Shown here: one piece after another, positions 32,259 through 46,899 of the stretch | Numbering within the stretch: the stretch's first letter is position 1 | Layout of the letters: each line of letters starts with the position of its first letter | Origin: Alphaproteobacteria bacterium | GTDB lineage: Bacteria; Pseudomonadota; Alphaproteobacteria; Micropepsales; Micropepsaceae | Length of the DNA stretch: 64,000 nucleotides | Direction: 5' to 3' | NCBI GenBank assembly: GCA_028871345.1 | Contig: JAGWNK010000011.1 | Location: 1-64,000, forward strand | Notes under the pieces: model-generated | What the model was told of the DNA's origin: nothing | Databases searched by the model: none | What the model saw: the letters and a program-made list of their open reading frames with translations, nothing else | Position numbers and translations under genes: made by a program

Positions 32259-33065
32259 ATGTTTCTCCTGGGGAACCAAGTTTCGTTGTTGCGGAATTTG
32301 CGACGCTTCGCCGTCACGGCGTCGATCCTGTTTTGCGGCGCCGCCGCGCATGCCGGTCCGACCTACACGGGCGTCGTCTCCTTGACGTGGAGCGGCCCGG
32401 TGCTTGCCGGATCCATCATCGACGGAGCAACCGGTAAGGCTTCGCCCATTGACAACTCCGCCACGGCGGCATGCGACCTCGCCGGATGCCCGAACGGCGT
32501 GGGCGCGTCCTTTGGTCCGGATACCCTGGCGTGGGGCGCGAACCCGAGTTCGAGCACCGTGACCGTCAACGGGCATTTCTTCAGCAACATCCCGCTCGAC
32601 ACACCGTTCGATGCCGCCCAGATCACCTATTACAACGGAACGTCGCAGCTCGATTCCCTGATCTTCGGCGCCACGCTGAATCTGCGATTCCTGCCGCCGT
32701 TCAATCAAAGCGGCCCTGACGTCGCCGACCCGCTGTCGATTCCGATAGACATTGTCACCACGGCCAACACGGGAACGCCGGCCCAGAATGCCGATTTCAT
32801 CGGACCGTTCGGAACGCCCAAGCCGCTGACCTTCAATGTGTTGGAGGGTATGAACGCCCAGGCGGAGCTCTACGGCGAGTTCGTCATGGACCCGCATTTC
32901 CAGCCGACGCTCATCGTGTCCACCGACGCCAACGGCTTCATCGGGACCGGTGCGGTCGGCGTGCCTGAACCTTCTGCATTGGCGCTGATGTTCGCCGGGC
33001 TCGGACTGCTGGGGGCCGCGCTGCGCAGGCGTCGCCTCTCTTCGGCCGGCGCGTCGCGGGGCTGA
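32259..33065 (+). CDS. PEP-CTERM sorting-domain protein
   Basis: This 268-residue exported protein has an N-terminal signal region (RRFAVTASILFCGAAAHAG), a beta-rich middle with no domain I can name, and the C-terminal tripartite PEP-CTERM tail: VPEPSALALMFAGLGLLGAAL then a basic RRRR cluster. Exosortase recognises such tails, but no exosortase gene is in this window. ATG 32259 has GGAGGAAAG upstream. The 200-base leader region has no other recognised gene. A Cys pair (CDLAGC) sits near residue 70. Confidence 0.85.
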   Translation: MFLLGNQVSLLRNLRRFAVTASILFCGAAAHAGPTYTGVVSLTWSGPVLAGSIIDGATGKASPIDNSATAACDLAGCPNGVGASFGPDTLAWGANPSSSTVTVNGHFFSNIPLDTPFDAAQITYYNGTSQLDSLIFGATLNLRFLPPFNQSGPDVADPLSIPIDIVTTANTGTPAQNADFIGPFGTPKPLTFNVLEGMNAQAELYGEFVMDPHFQPTLIVSTDANGFIGTGAVGVPEPSALALMFAGLGLLGAALRRRRLSSAGASRG

Positions 33066-35372: not shown

Positions 35373-35623
35373 CGGCAAGGCCATTTTGCCGGTACCCCGC
35401 ATGGTCTTGAGATTGCGACTGCAACGCATTCTATGATAGAAAGTCTGCGGGACGGTGCAGGCGTCAGTCCGTCGCCAGGGACTTCGAGCACAGCCGTCGT
35501 TGCGGTCATTCCCGTCGGTTCTGCGGGGGAAGCATCCATGATCAGGCACGCCAGACCAGCACACGCCGCGGCGGCCCGCGGCGCCGCGCTTTACGACATT
35601 CGGAAATCTTGAGGAGAGACGGT

Positions 35624-36241
35624 ATGGAGAACCAACAATCGTCGTTGCGCAGGATTCTGCTGCTGTTGACCACGACGGTCGCCGCCTTGGGCGTGGCCGT
35701 GGGTCTGCCGATGAAGAGGGCGTCGGCCCAGCCGCGCGACCGCGAAATGGCGCCGTCGCCCATGATGCATCAGCCGCCGTCCCGGCTCGTCGTGATCCAG
35801 CCGCGGTTTGTGAATCCCACAGCCGTGGGGCTGCTGCGGATCGCGGATGAGGCGCTCTCCAACGAAGATCTGGCGCAGCGCATCTTCCGCCAGCCGGATG
35901 CGGTGGCGGCGCAATTCCACCTCTCGAACGCCGAGCGGCTCGTTCTGCGCCACATGACCGCGGAACAGTTCGAAGTAGCGCGCGCCGATGCCTCACGGGT
36001 CGTGGCCGATCGCCTGTCGCGGGCGGGAACCATGCGCCTGCCGCCGGGCGCCACTGACGCCCGCCTGATCACCGAGCGCATGATCGTGGGTCGCGCCATT
36101 CTCGCCGCGGCGGGCCGGTCCTATCTCGAAGCGGCCGACGCGCATGGCTGTTGCCCCTGGAGCAAGGCCATCGAGCTGGGGCTGAATTCCGATCCGGCCT
36201 ATTACAACGAGGTCTTCCGCAGGCCGGCCGGCGGCGCTCTG
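35624..36241 (+). CDS. Exported protein with a LigA-like helical segment and Cys-Cys motif
   Basis: This product of about 206 residues has an N-terminal membrane or signal segment (ILLLLTTTVAALGVAVGLPM), a Pro/Met-rich linker, and a helical block at 78-122 (LSNEDLAQRIFRQPDAVAAQ followed by FHLSNAERLVLRHM). The block resembles the small LigA-type alpha fold of protocatechuate 4,5-dioxygenase, a fold also found in some RiPP leader peptides. The C-terminal part has HGCCPWSKAIELGLNSDPAYY. GAGGAGA precedes ATG 35624. The DUF455 gene follows seven bases after the stop codon, so the two are likely co-transcribed. I do not assign a function. Confidence 0.65.
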
Positions 36242-36248
36242 TAAGGCG

Positions 36249-37658
36249 ATGTCCGCAAGGCGCCGGTCCGCCTTCTGGTCGCCGGCGCAGGCGGCGGCCT
36301 CGCTCGTTCAGCTGGCTTACGTCGAGCGTGCGCTGGCGCACATCCTGGCCGGCTGGGCCGTCAAGATGCCGGCGTTCGACGCCAAGCTCGTCTTCGCCGC
36401 GCAGATGCATCGCGCGATGGAGCGGGCCAGCCTGCTGCGCAGCCGGGTCAACGGCCTTTGCCATGCCACGGCGAGCGAAGCCACCGTGCCCGCCGGCTGG
36501 CGCACGCTGTTGTCGCAGGTGGATCGCGCGCCGGCGCCGTCCCTGCTCGTGGCGGCGGTATATCGGTGGCTCTATCCGCAACTGATGGCGCTCTACGAGG
36601 CGCACGGGCGCGAAACCGATCCCGACGGCGACCGCCCGTCGGTCGATCTCATCCGCACTTTTCTGCCGTCGCTGGAAAGCGAGCGGCGGCAGGGGCTCGC
36701 CTTGTCGGCGAAGCGCGGCGACCGGGCATGGCTTCACACGATCGAGGAGCTGTGGAACATGCGGCAGTCGGGCGATCCGCTGTCGCTGGAGAGCGCGCTG
36801 TGGGGGCCGCTCGACCGCGTTCCGGCGGCGACGCGCCCGGCGGGAGCGCGCTTCTGCCCCCAAGGTTCGCTCGGTTTGCTGCCGGTGGATCCGGTGCACG
36901 ATCCGCGCGATGTCGGCATGTTCCTGCACAAGGAGCTCGACGAGGAATACACCACCCTCGAGCTCATGGCGCGCAATTCCTACGAACATCCCGACATGGC
37001 TTGGGCGTTCCACCGCGACATGGCGCGGCAGGCCTGCGATGAAGCGCGCCATGCCGTGATGATCACGCGCCTGCTGGCAGCGCGTGGCTTCCGCCACGGC
37101 GATTTCGCGTTCACCACATCATCGTATGACGGCCTTTACGCGTTCGAGCCGTGTCCGCCGGGCAGCCGCCGCGAGCTCTTGTGGCGCATGCTGATCCGCC
37201 AGACCTTCATGGAAGGGCTCGCGGTCGACAATCTCGCTTACGAGATCGACCACCGCCGGGCCGTCGGCCAGGGCGATATCGCGGCGGTATTCGATTACAT
37301 CCTGCGCGACGAGGTGTTCCACGCCCAGTCCGGCCTGCGCTGGTCGCGCGAGCTGCTCGCCTGCGATCCGCAATCCGTCCTCGCCGAACGCGAGCAGGCG
37401 ATCGCCTGCTTCACGGCGCGCGCCGAAGCGGCGCGGGAATCCTACGTCATGGCCAATCTCGACGAGGCGATGGGCGAGCTGACCGCCATCCAGGAGGGCC
37501 GGGAGCGCCGTGGCGGGAAGCTGCCGGAACGCCCGCTCAACCGGACGGGACGCCGGCAGGCGGGTTACACCGACGGCGACATCCTTCAGGTCGTGACCTG
37601 GGGCTACGCCCGCGACGATGCGGGGCAGCCTGCGGGACCATCGGCGCCGCCCGGATAG
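36249..37658 (+). CDS. DUF455 ferritin-like diiron protein
   Basis: This 469-residue protein belongs to the DUF455 branch of the ferritin-like superfamily. The diiron carboxylate pattern is complete: ELDEEYTTLELMA (first Glu), ACDEARHAVM (ExxH), RQTFMEGLAVDN (Glu) and LRDEVFHAQSG (ExxH), in a four-helix bundle spanning roughly 235-390. The N-terminal 200 residues are also helical and unassigned. The C-terminus is Pro/Gly-rich. It follows the exported LigA-like protein closely. Whether it is an oxidase, oxygenase or peroxidase cannot be read from the sequence. Confidence 0.82.
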   Translation: MSARRRSAFWSPAQAAASLVQLAYVERALAHILAGWAVKMPAFDAKLVFAAQMHRAMERASLLRSRVNGLCHATASEATVPAGWRTLLSQVDRAPAPSLLVAAVYRWLYPQLMALYEAHGRETDPDGDRPSVDLIRTFLPSLESERRQGLALSAKRGDRAWLHTIEELWNMRQSGDPLSLESALWGPLDRVPAATRPAGARFCPQGSLGLLPVDPVHDPRDVGMFLHKELDEEYTTLELMARNSYEHPDMAWAFHRDMARQACDEARHAVMITRLLAARGFRHGDFAFTTSSYDGLYAFEPCPPGSRRELLWRMLIRQTFMEGLAVDNLAYEIDHRRAVGQGDIAAVFDYILRDEVFHAQSGLRWSRELLACDPQSVLAEREQAIACFTARAEAARESYVMANLDEAMGELTAIQEGRERRGGKLPERPLNRTGRRQAGYTDGDILQVVTWGYARDDAGQPAGPSAPPG

Positions 37659-37900
37659 GCGCTGCGCCCGTCAGGATCGGGCCCGGCGGCGCGCCGACCT
37701 GGTAGATCACGACCGCCGCGCGCCCGCGACGGCCGCTCCGCAGGGAGTTTCCCAGCCCCGACAAAAGGATGGCTTCGGCTGCGACAATTTCGCGGATTGG
37801 ACGAAAAACCGGCTGGTAGCATCGGACTGGCCAGCACTGGTGCTAGCGCGCACTGCGCTCGCGCTCAGAATTGCGCCGGGATGGCCGTGGGGGCGGGCGA

Positions 37901-38878
37901 ATGTCGCGACATCGCTGGATGGGACTGGCCGTGGCGCTCGGGCTCGGCTTCGCCATGCCGGCGATCGCCGAGGCGCCGCAGGCGGAGTCCCCCGCCAGCT
38001 ACAGCGAGCACGGCGCCGACACCTGCCTGCAATGCCACAACGAGGCGCCGGCGACCGACATTCTCAAGACGGCGCACAACGTGAAGGGCGGGCCGTTCGC
38101 GCAACATGGCTGCGAGGCCTGCCACGGTCCCAGTGCGGCGCACGTCGCGGGCTTCGCCGCCGGCAAACTCATGCCGCCCAACACGGTGTTCGACGGAGCC
38201 GACGCGTCGCCGGTGGCGCAGCGCAACCAGGCCTGCCTCAATTGCCACCAGGACAAGCGCATGACATGGCAAGGCGGCCAGCCGGCAAACTGGTGGGACG
38301 ACCGCCGGCATGCGAGCCCGCATCACGACGCGGGCCTCGCCTGCGTCAGCTGCCACACCCTGCACGCCGCCAGGGATGCGGTCCGGGTACGGACGACGCA
38401 GGCCGAAAAATGCTTCGCCTGTCATGCCGACCAGAAGACCGAAAGCGCTCGGCGATCGCATCATCCGATCCGCAGCGCCAGGGTCGTCTGCAGCGACTGC
38501 CACGACCCGCACGGTTCGGATGGCCCGGCCCTGTTGAAGAAAGCCACGGTCAACGCGACCTGCACCGGTTGCCATGCCGACAAGCGCCGCGCCAGCGTGT
38601 CGGAGCATCCCCCGGTCCGCCAGAGCTGCCTGAACTGCCACGTGCCGCACGGCTCCGACGGCCCGTTCCTCCTCAAGACCCGCACGGTCGAGGCGACCTG
38701 CTACGCCTGCCACGCCGGCAAGCGCGATTCGATGCCTGGCGGGCACCACCAGGGCGGCGGCAATTGCCTGGACTGCCACGCCCCGCACGGCTCCGGCGAG
38801 ATCTGCCTGTTGAAGGGCGGCCGCTCCTCCACCTGCGCCAACTGCCACAGCACGATTCCGGCGAAGTGCGACTTGTGA
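37901..38878 (+). CDS. Exported multihaem c-type cytochrome (11 CxxCH, DmsE-like)
   Basis: This 325-residue periplasmic cytochrome has a signal peptide (MSRHRWMGLAVALGLGFAMPAIA) and eleven CxxCH haem-binding motifs by my count. The first is CLQCHNEAP and the last CANCHSTIP. Several are followed by PHGSDGP repeats (CSDCHDPHGSDGP, CLNCHVPHGSDGP, CLDCHAPHGSGE), the doublet pattern of the DmsE/MtrA cytochrome c3-like group. MtrA/DmsE are decahaem. No MtrB porin or reductase gene is adjacent. ATG 37901 has GGGGGCGGGCG upstream. It probably passes electrons in the periplasm; partners are unknown. Confidence 0.88.
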   Translation: MSRHRWMGLAVALGLGFAMPAIAEAPQAESPASYSEHGADTCLQCHNEAPATDILKTAHNVKGGPFAQHGCEACHGPSAAHVAGFAAGKLMPPNTVFDGADASPVAQRNQACLNCHQDKRMTWQGGQPANWWDDRRHASPHHDAGLACVSCHTLHAARDAVRVRTTQAEKCFACHADQKTESARRSHHPIRSARVVCSDCHDPHGSDGPALLKKATVNATCTGCHADKRRASVSEHPPVRQSCLNCHVPHGSDGPFLLKTRTVEATCYACHAGKRDSMPGGHHQGGGNCLDCHAPHGSGEICLLKGGRSSTCANCHSTIPAKCDL

Positions 38879-43087: not shown

Positions 43088-43715
43088 CGGGCTGGTTCTT
43101 CGGCAGGGCGTCGGCGAAGGCCGGCAGCGCCAAGGCCGTCTCCTCGATGCGCAGCAGCGTGGGGAAGGGCGCCAGGTCGAGCTGGGCGCGCCGCGCATTG
43201 GCGAGCTGGGGGATCAGGAAGATGTCGGCCAGCGTCGGCTTGTCCTTGTGGCAGAAGCGTCCGGTGTCGCTGCTCCCCGCCACGAGGTCTTCGAAGGCCT
43301 CAAGCCCCAGCGCGATCCAGTGGCGTTGCCAGTCCGCGACGGCTTCTTCGTTCTGGCCCATCCGGTCGCGCAGATAGCGCAGCACCCGCAGGTTGCCGAG
43401 CGGGTGGATGTCGCAGGCGACGATGTCGGCCAGCTGGCGCACGCGGGCGCGTTCGGCGGCTCTCGCGGGAAGCAGCGGCGGCTCGGGCACGATCTCGTCG
43501 AGGTATTCCGCGATGGCGAGCGACTGGCCGAAGCTGCGTCCGTCGTGCTCGAGCGTCGGCACCAGGCCCTGCGGATTGATGCCGCGATAAGGCGCCGAGC
43601 CCTGCTCGTTCTTGCGGAGGTGGACGAAGACCTGCTCCGGCTTCAGGCCCTTCAGGTTGAGCGCGATGCGCACGCGAAAGGCGGCCGAGGATCGGAAGTA
43701 GGTGTAGAGCTTCAT
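43077..43715 (-). CDS. maiA: Maleylacetoacetate isomerase
   Basis: This zeta-class GST-fold enzyme (212 residues) isomerises maleylacetoacetate to fumarylacetoacetate. The N-terminal thioredoxin-like domain begins LYTYFRSSAAFRVRIALNLKG, where the SS..R...AL pattern is the family's glutathione site, followed by NPQGLVPTLEHDG and QSLAIAEYLDE. The C-terminal domain has CDIHPLGNLRVLRYL and FCHKDKPTLADIFLIPQL. The start overlaps the fahA stop as ATGA. Confidence 0.94.
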   Translation of the reverse strand: MKLYTYFRSSAAFRVRIALNLKGLKPEQVFVHLRKNEQGSAPYRGINPQGLVPTLEHDGRSFGQSLAIAEYLDEIVPEPPLLPARAAERARVRQLADIVACDIHPLGNLRVLRYLRDRMGQNEEAVADWQRHWIALGLEAFEDLVAGSSDTGRFCHKDKPTLADIFLIPQLANARRAQLDLAPFPTLLRIEETALALPAFADALPKNQPDAE

Positions 43716-44704
43716 GGCGCTGATCCCCGATACGGCGCCACGCGCTGGTCGATGGCGCCGAAGATGGAGCGGCCGTCGTGGTCGAACATCTCCAGGCGCA
43801 CTCTATCACCGAAGCGCAGGAAGGGCGTGCGCGCCTCGCCGTGCTCGATCTGCTCCAGCATGCGCTGCTCGGCGATGCAGCAGGATCCCCCGCTCCTGTC
43901 GGCGTTGGAGACCGTGCCCGAGCCGATGACGGTGCCGGCGCCGAGGAAGCGGGTGCGCGCCGCGTGGGCGATCAGCTCGGCGAAGGAAAAGGTCATGTCG
44001 ATGCCGGCGTTGGGTGCTCCGAAATGCTGGCCGTTGAGCGTCACCGTCAGGGGCAGGTGCACCTTGGTCTCCCGCCACGCCTCGCCCAGCTCGTCCGGCG
44101 TCACCGCCACCGGCGAGAACGAAGTCGCGGGCTTGGACTGGAAGAAGCCGAAGCCCTTGGCGAGCTCGGCGGGGATCAGGTTGCGCAGGCTGACGTCGTT
44201 GACCAGCATCAGGAGCTTGATGTGGCGGCCGGCCCGGCTGGGTGAGACCGCCATCGGCACGTCGTCGGTGATCGCCGCCAACTCGCCCTCGAAGTCGATG
44301 CCGAAGGCCTCGTCCTGGGCGAGGATCGCTTCGGTGGGTCCGGCGAAGGCGTCTGAGCCGCCCTGGTACATCAGCGGGTCGGTCCAGAACGAGGGCGGCA
44401 TGGTGGCGCCGCGCGCCTTGCGCACCAGCTCCACATGGGTGACATAGGCCGAGCCGTCCGCCCACTGATAGGCCCGCGGCAGGGGGGAGGCGCACTGCGC
44501 CGCCTCGAACGGCATCGTCTCCGCCGCCGCTTGTTCATTCAGGCGCCGGTAGACGGCGAGGAGCTGCGGCTCGGTCTCCTGCCAGCGGTCGAGCGCCGAT
44601 TGCATCGTGGCCGCGATCCGGGGCACCGCCACGCAACGCGTCAGATTGCGCGACACCACCGCCAGCTGGCCGTCGCGGCCCGACTTCAGTGAGGCGAGCT
44701 TCAT
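43712..44704 (-). CDS. fahA: Fumarylacetoacetase
   Basis: This 330-residue enzyme hydrolyses fumarylacetoacetate to fumarate and acetoacetate, the last step of tyrosine breakdown. It shows the two-domain bacterial FAH layout, with the metal-site motifs FGIDFEGELAAITDDVPM and MLVNDVSLRNLIPAELAKGFGFFQSKPATSFSPV and the late FLGAGTVIGSGTVSNAD. The start is immediately after the hmgA stop. The short form (about 330 residues, versus about 420 in mammals) is usual in bacteria. Confidence 0.93.
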   Translation of the reverse strand: MKLASLKSGRDGQLAVVSRNLTRCVAVPRIAATMQSALDRWQETEPQLLAVYRRLNEQAAAETMPFEAAQCASPLPRAYQWADGSAYVTHVELVRKARGATMPPSFWTDPLMYQGGSDAFAGPTEAILAQDEAFGIDFEGELAAITDDVPMAVSPSRAGRHIKLLMLVNDVSLRNLIPAELAKGFGFFQSKPATSFSPVAVTPDELGEAWRETKVHLPLTVTLNGQHFGAPNAGIDMTFSFAELIAHAARTRFLGAGTVIGSGTVSNADRSGGSCCIAEQRMLEQIEHGEARTPFLRFGDRVRLEMFDHDGRSIFGAIDQRVAPYRGSAP

Positions 44705-45832
44705 CTACTTGGCCTTCCAACTGTCGGCATAAGACCTGTCCTCGGTGTCCGCCGCCGCCTCCGACAGGTCGAGGGGATCGCGGGCGTCGATCATCACGGC
44801 GACCTCGTCCGTCATCGTCTTGGCGGCCTTGGCGCCCGCGGCGAATGCCTTGGGGTGGGGGCCGTGGGTGAAGCCGCAGGGATGGAACGTCACCATGCCC
44901 GGCCGGATGTTGTCGCGACTGAAGAACTCGCCGGCGTGATAGAAGATCACCTCGTCGTAATCGTCGTTGGAATGGAAGAACGGCACCTTCAGCGCGCCGG
45001 GGTCGCTCTCGATCGGCCGCGGCACGAACGTGCAGACGATGAAGCGGTCCGACAGAAAGGTCGCATGGACCGAGGGCGGAATGTGGTAGCGATGGCTCAT
45101 CACCGGGCGGATGTCGCGCCAGTTGAGCTTGACGGCGCTGAGGTTTCCCTTCCAGCCCGCGGCATCCAGCGGATTGAAGGGATAGGTGATGGTCGTGATC
45201 GCGTCGCGCCGCTTCACCTCCACCCGCCAGGGCCGTTCGTCGGCTTGGGCGCGGAAGGCATTGTCCAGCCTCGGTGTGTCCAAGGCGGCCGGGTCGAAGA
45301 TGGCGTGAGGACCCAGGATGCCCCGCTCAGGGAGCCGGTAGGAACCGTTCGTCGCCTCGATGAGAAGCAGGACGGTGGGTGACTTCGGTTCGAGGCGCCA
45401 CATCGTGCCGCGCGGCAGCAGGATGTAGTCGCCTTCGCCACAGGGCAGGTGGCCGAAGTCGCAGAACAGATCACCGCCGCCCTCGTGGACGAACAGGAGA
45501 TCGTCGCCGTCCGCGTTGCGCGCCAGCGCCGCCATGGCGTGTTCGATGCGCCAAATCCTCAGCTTGACCGAGGCGTTGGTCAGCAGCGCGGCCGCATCGA
45601 AGGGACCGCCGGCCCGGGCGGCCTTCTTGGCGTTGAAGGCGCGCGGCCGCAGCGGCCCCTCGAACGAGGTCCATCCCGTCGGCGGGTGGCGATGGTAGAT
45701 GTGGCTCGCCGGCCCGAAGAACCCGTCGCGGCCGATCTCGCGCTCATAGGTACCGGCGGGGAGATCGGCGTGTGCCTGACGCGACGTCTCTCCCTCGATG
45801 CGGGGGAATTCGATCCAATTCTTCGCGCTCAT
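44705..45832 (-). CDS. hmgA: Homogentisate 1,2-dioxygenase
   Basis: This iron(II) ring-cleaving dioxygenase (375 residues) converts homogentisate to maleylacetoacetate. It has a cupin fold with the iron-binding region SNDDYDEVIFYHAGEFFSR (His/Glu ligands), FHPCGFTHGPHP (His ligand) and the preceding SHRYHIPPSVHATFLSD. At 375 residues it is shorter than the mammalian enzyme (about 445), as I would expect for the short bacterial form. Its start overlaps the hppD stop as ATGA. Confidence 0.93.
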   Translation of the reverse strand: MSAKNWIEFPRIEGETSRQAHADLPAGTYEREIGRDGFFGPASHIYHRHPPTGWTSFEGPLRPRAFNAKKAARAGGPFDAAALLTNASVKLRIWRIEHAMAALARNADGDDLLFVHEGGGDLFCDFGHLPCGEGDYILLPRGTMWRLEPKSPTVLLLIEATNGSYRLPERGILGPHAIFDPAALDTPRLDNAFRAQADERPWRVEVKRRDAITTITYPFNPLDAAGWKGNLSAVKLNWRDIRPVMSHRYHIPPSVHATFLSDRFIVCTFVPRPIESDPGALKVPFFHSNDDYDEVIFYHAGEFFSRDNIRPGMVTFHPCGFTHGPHPKAFAAGAKAAKTMTDEVAVMIDARDPLDLSEAAADTEDRSYADSWKAK

Positions 45833-46899
45833 GCCCGCAGCACTCCGCGCTGGATCTGGTCGGCTTCGATGGATTCGAACAGGGCCCGGAAATTGCCCTC
45901 GCCGAACCCTTCATTGCCCTTGCGCTGGATGATTTCGAAGAAGATGGGGCCGATGGCGTTGCGGGTGAAGATCTGCAGCAGCAGCCCCTGTTCGTTGTCG
46001 CCGTCGATCAGGATGCGGTTCGCCTGCATGCGCGGCAGGTCTTCGCCGTGGCCTTTGATGCGATTGTCGATGCGCTGATAATAGGTGTCCGGCGTGTCCT
46101 GGAAGGGGACGCCGAACCCCCTGAGGCTCTCCACCGAGCGGTAGATGTCGCGGGTTCCCAGTGCGATGTGCTGGATGCCTTCTCCGCGGTAGCTGTGGAG
46201 GTATTCCTCGATCTGAGACTTGTCGTCCGAGGATTCGTTGATGGGGATGCGGATCTTGCCGTCCGGGCTCGTCATGGCGCGCGACTTGAGGCCGGTCAGC
46301 TTGCCCTCGATGTCGAAGTAGCGCACTTCGCGGAAGTTGAAGAGCTTCTCGTAGAACCCCGCCCACTGATCCATGTGTCCGCGGTAGACGTTATGCGTGA
46401 CGTGGTCGATCTCGGTAAGCCCGGCCCCGGCATGGACCATGCCCTTGTCGGGATCTGTCGCCACAAAATCGACGTCGTAGATCGAATGTTCCCCGTAGCG
46501 GTCCACCAGGTAGATCACGCTGCCGCCGATACCCTCGATCGCCGGAATGTTGAGCTGCATCGGCCCGATCTGATTGTGGAAGGGTTTGGCGCCGGCGGCG
46601 ATCAGTTTGGCATAGGCGGCGGCGGCGTCCTTCACGCGAAAGGCCATGGCGCAGGCGCTCGGCCCGTGCGCTTTGGCAAATCTGGAACCGTGACTCTCCG
46701 GCTCCGCGTTGACGATGAAGTTGACGTCGCCCTGCCGGTAGAGCGTCACCGCCTTGGCGCGATGGCGAGCCACCGCCCGAAAGCCCATCTGTTCGAACAG
46801 GTGGTGAAGCTGGTCCACGTCGGGCGCGGTGTATTCGACGAATTCAAAACCGTCCGTGCCGATCGGGTTGTTCCAGATGTCCTTGCGGAGTTCAGCCAT
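45829..46899 (-). CDS. hppD: 4-hydroxyphenylpyruvate dioxygenase
   Basis: This non-haem iron dioxygenase (356 residues) turns 4-hydroxyphenylpyruvate into homogentisate. It has two vicinal-oxygen-chelate domains; the C-terminal one carries the iron ligands in EIDHVTHNV, GEGIQHIALGTRDIY and the final Glu region GFGEGNFRALFESIE. The typical KGNEGFGEGNF helix closes the active site. It is the first gene of the operon hppD-hmgA-fahA-maiA-marR, and ATG 46899 lies about 30 bases downstream of a palindromic operator candidate. Confidence 0.95.
   Translation of the reverse strand: MAELRKDIWNNPIGTDGFEFVEYTAPDVDQLHHLFEQMGFRAVARHRAKAVTLYRQGDVNFIVNAEPESHGSRFAKAHGPSACAMAFRVKDAAAAYAKLIAAGAKPFHNQIGPMQLNIPAIEGIGGSVIYLVDRYGEHSIYDVDFVATDPDKGMVHAGAGLTEIDHVTHNVYRGHMDQWAGFYEKLFNFREVRYFDIEGKLTGLKSRAMTSPDGKIRIPINESSDDKSQIEEYLHSYRGEGIQHIALGTRDIYRSVESLRGFGVPFQDTPDTYYQRIDNRIKGHGEDLPRMQANRILIDGDNEQGLLLQIFTRNAIGPIFFEIIQRKGNEGFGEGNFRALFESIEADQIQRGVLRA

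Follow-up and report, generated by a model that had tools for sequence, protein, structure and literature searches.

The gene pair and the exported-type protein P1

In the window, that is, the whole stretch of 64,000 nucleotides that was analysed, two consecutive genes were found on the forward strand where the initial annotation had placed them. The first, P1 (35624..36244), encodes a small exported-type protein of 206 aa, the candidate substrate discussed below; the second, P2 (36249..37658), encodes a protein of 469 aa in which a companion domain is fused to a DUF455-type putative diiron domain. P2 starts 4 bases after the stop codon of P1, or 7 if counted from the last sense codon as was done originally. 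The start codon of P1 was assigned to the ATG at 35624, upstream of which lies a Shine-Dalgarno-like GGAGAG (35613..35618, forward strand), whose GGAG is invariant at all four orthologous loci. Inspection of the four loci revealed no other common upstream motif, and no promoter- or terminator-like site for a shared regulation of P1 and P2 was found. The GC contents at the three codon positions (0.70/0.50/0.84 for P1 and 0.72/0.51/0.86 for P2) were like those of four other genes of the window and unlike those of two antisense ORFs taken for comparison. Among the six pairs formed by the four orthologues, dN/dS was 0.22-0.44 for P1 (below 0.45 throughout) and 0.20-0.27 for P2, with synonymous change being high in most pairs (dS 0.65-1.31); by these ratios, both genes are under purifying selection.

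The N-terminus of P1 consists of a short basic segment and a hydrophobic stretch, followed by GLPMKRASA and then Q. Residues 1-35 (35624..35728, forward strand) were read as a putative Sec signal peptide with predicted cleavage after A35, within A-S-A-Q. The Kyte-Doolittle maximum over 15 residues of this segment was 2.0-2.3 in all four orthologues (2.3 in the P1 of the window), and each of them carried a small-x-Ala site in the alignment (A-S-A, A-M-A, T-L-A and S-F-A), so that a small residue was kept at -3 and Ala at -1, while position -2 varied (S, M, L or F). Signal peptidase I is expected to require a small residue at -3 and Ala at -1, with -2 free to vary. The claim of a signal or anchor on P1 was thus borne out as a Sec-type pattern. 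The segment could instead be an uncleaved anchor, with the remainder of P1 staying in the cytoplasm and recruiting P2 to the membrane, for which the positive residues on both sides of the hydrophobic stretch (MKR/KK) would speak; we consider this very unlikely, as the A/S/T-x-A pattern is kept in four of four orthologues with a variable -2 position and is followed by a poorly conserved linker. P2 showed no segment comparable to the hydrophobic start of P1 (15-residue maximum of at most 1.7). Since only P1 has an export-type start, any contact between the two proteins would have to precede export.

Conservation along P1 was found to be uneven, with invariant columns amounting to 4/20 in the linker, 31/64 in the helical block, 5/27 in a variable stretch, 16/25 in a further helix and 15/26 in the tail. 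The helical block (residues 57-120; 35792..35983, forward strand) had been described as resembling LigA-type leader domains. No match of the Pfam LigA family to P1 was obtained at E up to 1, nor to any of the four members at E up to 5; a weak likeness to Os1348/NHLP leaders was given by NF038399 (NCBIfam) in three of the four members (E 0.014, 3.0e-4 and 2.1e-4; 15.5, 20.8 and 21.3 bits, all under the cut-off of 40), the fourth giving no match. When the block was compared by hhalign with five sequences matched by NF038399 in relatives, three of which are, as we assume, probably nitrile hydratase alpha subunits, the score was 23.0 but the probability only 3.2%; none of 200 column shuffles reached this score (maximum 20.4), the reversed alignment gave 18.7, and a plain hmmsearch for the same comparison was not significant (best E 0.11). 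Taken together, the resemblance of the block to NHLP leaders is suggestive at the level of sequence. Short ORFs with weak likeness to NHLP leaders were also seen at two loci of relatives, L080 in G029 (NF038399 E 0.0019) and L076 in G004 (E 1.7e-4).

The AlphaFold2 model of P1, built from a two-row alignment, had a mean pLDDT of 49.2, and its block means exceeded 60 only at residues 71-120 (mean pLDDT 65-81). With this low-confidence model, Foldseek returned nothing significant (best E 1.0); DesB (3wra_B), the LigA structural comparison, stood at rank 49 with an rmsd of 3.6 over 45 columns and E 6.5. VIA-align likewise gave nothing significant, its best match (Z 5.7, rmsd 5.8 over 106) being commonplace for helical models. 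A search of PDB sequences with P1 gave no match by phmmer up to E 5 and one at E 2 with the profile.

The C-terminal tail had been pointed out for its two cysteines, whose conservation was to be checked. The conserved tail (residues 173-198; 36140..36217, forward strand) reads AHxCCPWxKAIxxGxxxDPAxY, and H174, C176, C177, P178 and W179 (HxCCPW) are invariant in all four orthologues, both cysteines of the pair included. CCPW lies at 36149-36160 of the forward strand, and C176/C177 are 29 residues from the C-terminus. The conservation of the tail speaks for a single conserved product, exported and possibly metal-binding, and not for a diversified antibiotic. A nitrile hydratase origin of P1 was also considered, on the basis that the tail is slightly like CTLCSC and that NF038399 also matches such proteins in relatives; it was rejected, no nitrile hydratase Pfam family having matched P1 or its orthologues at E up to 5. 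The NF038399-matching proteins of the relatives were taken by us for nitrile hydratase alpha subunits from their CTLCSC motif.

A divergent DUF455 protein with a fused companion domain

The assignment of P2 to DUF455 with a complete Glu/ExxH set proved correct. PF04305 (Pfam), which has a cut-off of 34.3 bits, matched residues 219-372 of P2 with 55.4 bits over profile positions 60-206 of 247, and all four P2 orthologues exceeded the cut-off. The predicted diiron ligands E229, E265xxH268, E322 and E355xxH358 (36933..37322, forward strand) did not vary in any of the 27 DUF455-type sequences aligned; these were the proteins from the fetched loci that the P2 profile matched with E no higher than 1e-3, without the rows of three separate companion genes, and having been found with related profiles they are biased toward conserved columns. 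A search of PDB sequences with P2 reached symerythrin at E 0.65 by phmmer and 0.11 with the profile. The AlphaFold2 model of P2 (mean pLDDT 38.6) was left out of the structure searches.

In the FastTree phylogeny, the four P2 proteins and three proteins of the f126 family stood apart from the 20 others with a support of 0.998 and on long branches. Directly downstream of each of the three f126 DUF455 genes lies a gene for a protein of 226-227 aa which is homologous to the N-terminal domain of P2, the companion domain (residues 10-170; 36276..36758, forward strand), with hmmsearch E values of 1.9e-7, 6.8e-6 and 3.6e-5. Because the N-terminal domain of P2 is a separate adjoining gene in these relatives from three other genomes, P2 is to be regarded as a fusion of two proteins. 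One cysteine of the companion domain (C71 of P2) was kept in seven of seven sequences; no diiron motif was seen in this domain by inspection and no similarity to the DUF455 domain could be detected. The split genes form a conserved two-gene unit at L049 (9135-10867), L050 (8945-10599) and L051 (9108-10851), with the deep-branching DUF455 gene first and the gene for the 226-227-aa protein second, next to a gene which we take to be dapF-like. The 226-227-aa protein, of which one of the three was scanned, matched no Pfam family, and no P1-like gene was found near these three units. Compared with canonical DUF455 proteins (PF04305), P2 thus shares all six predicted ligands and a C-terminal motif, which showed up as an additional match in four of the others, whereas in the tree it falls, with the split type, outside the canonical clade (support 0.998), its match to the family is only partial and its companion domain adds about 200 aa.

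No published tested function for DUF455 was found in the open-access literature, to which the search was largely confined at the expense of subscription papers. In the same literature, DUF455 was not found in titles or abstracts, nor together with ferritin-like, and ferritin-like, RiPP, precursor peptide and diiron were not found in combination; in the available text, DUF455 co-occurred with RiPP only in a potato association study and in a cysteine database. In the available text, a fold survey from 2015 places DUF455 among the families relatable to known superfamilies. The cysteine database files the family with electron transport and Fe-S biogenesis and notes, for a mycobacterial protein, a Cys-His-Asp triad; the same text of the survey and the database does not mention protein modification by DUF455.

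The intact ligands bear on one reading in which P1 would be a folded metal or redox protein for export, with an HxCC site, and P2 an iron- or oxygen-handling maturation or chaperone partner on which its assembly or protection depends and which leaves no permanent oxidation product. The invariance of H174, C176 and C177 in all four orthologues, and the conservation of the helical block as well, would fit it. Nevertheless we regard it as unlikely, as P1 has the look of an exported protein but no export signal is visible on P2, and P2 keeps all its diiron ligands, for which a mere chaperone would have no use.

Distribution, probable joint transfer and neighbourhood of the pair

A profile search found P1 in four of 96 genomes of the order, namely this genome, G043, G052 and G080. 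PF04305 scored over its cut-off in 10 of the same 96, comprising the four P1 genomes and, without overlap, six genomes with canonical DUF455 and no P1; 21 further genomes had matches below the cut-off only. Three of these weaker matches were inspected and proved to be proteins of 364-370 aa, which we take to resemble another ferritin-like family. P1 and P2 were adjacent at four of four loci, being separated by 4 nt here and by 27 nt in G052 and G080, while in G043 the P2 start GTG overlaps the P1 stop TGA (GTGA). All four orthologues belong to one bacterial family and are too few for coevolution analysis.

Wider searches added little to this distribution. The only relative in a wider search of genome contigs was a MAG contig of Alphaproteobacteria bacterium isolate fen_915, counted once with G043. 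In samples of the class (385 genomes, P2 profile) and of the phylum (398 genomes, P1 profile), where at most 4 and 7 candidates respectively were scored per genome and distant members could escape, this genome was recovered together with nine partial DUF455 matches in the former and one chance match in the latter. Viral contigs yielded no relatives of P1 or P2; among plasmids there were none of P1, and the single DUF455 protein came from a plasmid of Geobacillus. Several weak matches were rejected: a P1 match in G826 (E 0.009) was a chance one, overlapping on the other strand a gene which is presumably GTPase-like; P1 matches in G130 (E 7.6e-4) and G019 (E 0.0014) had no P1-like gene in the surrounding ORFs; and a P2 match in G045 (E 4.3e-4) contained an internal stop, again with no P2-like gene in the surrounding ORFs.

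When identities were compared, P1 of G052 was closer to that of G080, which belongs to another genus, than to that of this genome (66% vs 55%), and so was P2 (71% vs 66%), whereas RpoB of G052 was 90-91% identical to that of this genome and 81% to that of G080; no RpoB was found in G043. Since P1 and P2 conflict with RpoB in the same way, the pair probably moved together, and a joint transfer between genera as a unit is the probable history from these comparisons, although an ancient duplication with losses may be the alternative. No flanking ORF of at least 60 aa was common to all four loci within about 8.5 kb, the ORFs compared being 101, 100, 66 and 109 per locus and the G052 locus being cut by a contig end.

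Two findings would have spoken against the initial annotation, namely DUF455 homologues that mostly stand alone and a tail that varies among orthologues; the second was not observed, and the first was observed for DUF455 in general but not for the fused type. Outside the P1-P2 family, hmmsearch detected no P1-like ORF of at least 50 aa around eight DUF455 genes whose neighbourhoods of 18-20 kb were examined, three of which carry the split companion gene; together with the six canonical genomes of the order, this indicates that DUF455 proteins are generally without P1, but the fused type of P2 stands beside P1 at every one of its four loci. On this sequence evidence, the association with P1 is a property of one divergent DUF455 subfamily, the fused type, and not of DUF455 at large.

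In the window, the gene upstream of the pair is for an AraC-type regulator and the one downstream for a multiheme cytochrome. The latter is a DmsE-family c-type cytochrome with 11 CXXCH (37871-38878, forward strand), about 0.2 kb downstream of P2, and is followed by a gene for an S9 peptidase on the other strand. The cytochrome was rejected as a part of the P1-P2 unit, as no ORF with at least three CXXCH was present in the available stretches of the other three loci. The S9 peptidase and another hydrolase (Pfam) lie near the pair here, and no protease or transporter gene was common to the four loci. An exosortase-type exported PEP-CTERM protein is encoded at 32259-33065 (forward strand), 2.6 kb upstream of the pair. 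A block of homogentisate-pathway genes, for fumarylacetoacetate hydrolase, a homogentisate dioxygenase-like protein and hydroxyphenylpyruvate dioxygenase, occurs at 43715-46899 (reverse strand) of the window and at 16213-19716 of L031. Block and pair are about 5-6 kb apart both here and in G080, with the block on opposite sides of the pair; neither G043 nor G052 showed homogentisate genes within about 8.5 kb of their pair. The loci of this genome and G080 also share one distant hydrolase match.

These neighbourhoods bear on the main rival explanation, which holds that role because the split relatives manage without P1: P2 would act on a small molecule like other ferritin-like oxidases, and P1 would be a co-regulated periplasmic protein of the pathway, for example a carrier or product sensor, with no covalent change. 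That the DUF455 and companion type exists without P1, and that two of the four loci have homogentisate-pathway genes nearby, would agree with it. With no pathway gene common to the four loci within about 8.5 kb, and with the pair behaving as a two-gene unit in transfer, we nonetheless find it doubtful.

Proposed modification of P1 and comparison with known systems

As a tentative model, to which we give somewhat less than an even chance, P1 would be oxidatively modified by P2, probably around its tail, while still in the cytoplasm and ahead of Sec export, so that the pair would be a self-contained, transferable modification cassette. P1, made with its Sec signal peptide, would not leave the cytoplasm until P2 had had time to act. 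P2, a putative diiron oxidase of the divergent DUF455 branch with a built-in companion domain, would recognise the folded helical block of P1 and oxidise the conserved tail, with the HxCCPW region as the most likely site; after this, P1 would be exported via Sec and cut by signal peptidase, giving a product that may be a metal-binding protein. The sequence-level basis is formed by the gene pairing, the joint transfer signal, the signal-peptide pattern, the conserved tail, the intact ligands and the fusion architecture, from which we infer iron binding by P2, P1 as its substrate, the residues changed and the exported role. P1 is proposed as the substrate because a strict co-moving pair, intact iron ligands and an invariant HxCCPW tail are best explained in this way. 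A more specific version, that this type of P2, from a DUF455 branch not described before, serves a Sec-exported protein as its dedicated oxidase, installing a Cys- or Trp-centred change in HxCCPW that yields a metal- or redox-active product, with genes moving between genera as a unit, is possible although we would not count it as likely.

Several observations count against modification of P1 by P2. The relatives of P2 with a split companion have no nearby P1, so that this type of enzyme does not depend on it. Conservation of the helical block comes close to that of the tail (31/64 and 15/26), and P1 may therefore simply be a folded functional protein. The similarity to NHLP leaders falls under the family cut-off, and the four loci share no protease or transporter gene. 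What is new here is the pairing of P1 with the fused type of P2, its probable joint mobility, the deep-branching DUF455 with its companion fusion and the conserved tail; should P1 be a dedicated partner, it would offer a testable substrate for this branch of DUF455.

Among known systems, P1 resembles the NHLP-leader precursors (Os1348, NF038399) in having, as judged by eye, a helical block of the DPxAVxA..LSxxE type ahead of a conserved Cys tail. According to the available text of PMC12455567, NHLP leaders are folded helical bundles which a YcaO enzyme recognises via protein-protein contacts. The block of P1 might be recognised in a similar manner. P1 differs from these precursors in scoring under the curated cut-off of NF038399, in carrying a Sec-type signal ahead of the block and, as far as the low-confidence model goes, in having further helices between block and tail; unlike in NHLP-leader systems, no YcaO or similar enzyme was present among the 12 neighbouring ORFs scanned.

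A precedent is offered by the bufferin group, in which, as the available text of PMC12452194 describes, MNIO iron enzymes modify Cys-containing precursors, some of them very long and most of them bearing a Sec signal. As in bufferins and MNIO (DUF692) systems, a Cys-containing exported-type protein is encoded beside an iron-type oxidative enzyme, here as judged from the gene sequences. The differences are that P2 is of the ferritin-like DUF455 type (its only Pfam match at E up to 1 was DUF455, with no DUF692), that a Pfam scan of 12 neighbouring ORFs in the window gave no DUF2063-type partner, and that P1 has a long conserved helical block. By analogy, our best reading is that the pair follows a bufferin-like logic with a different iron enzyme; if true, a second iron-enzyme fold would be added to the exported-precursor logic known from bufferins.
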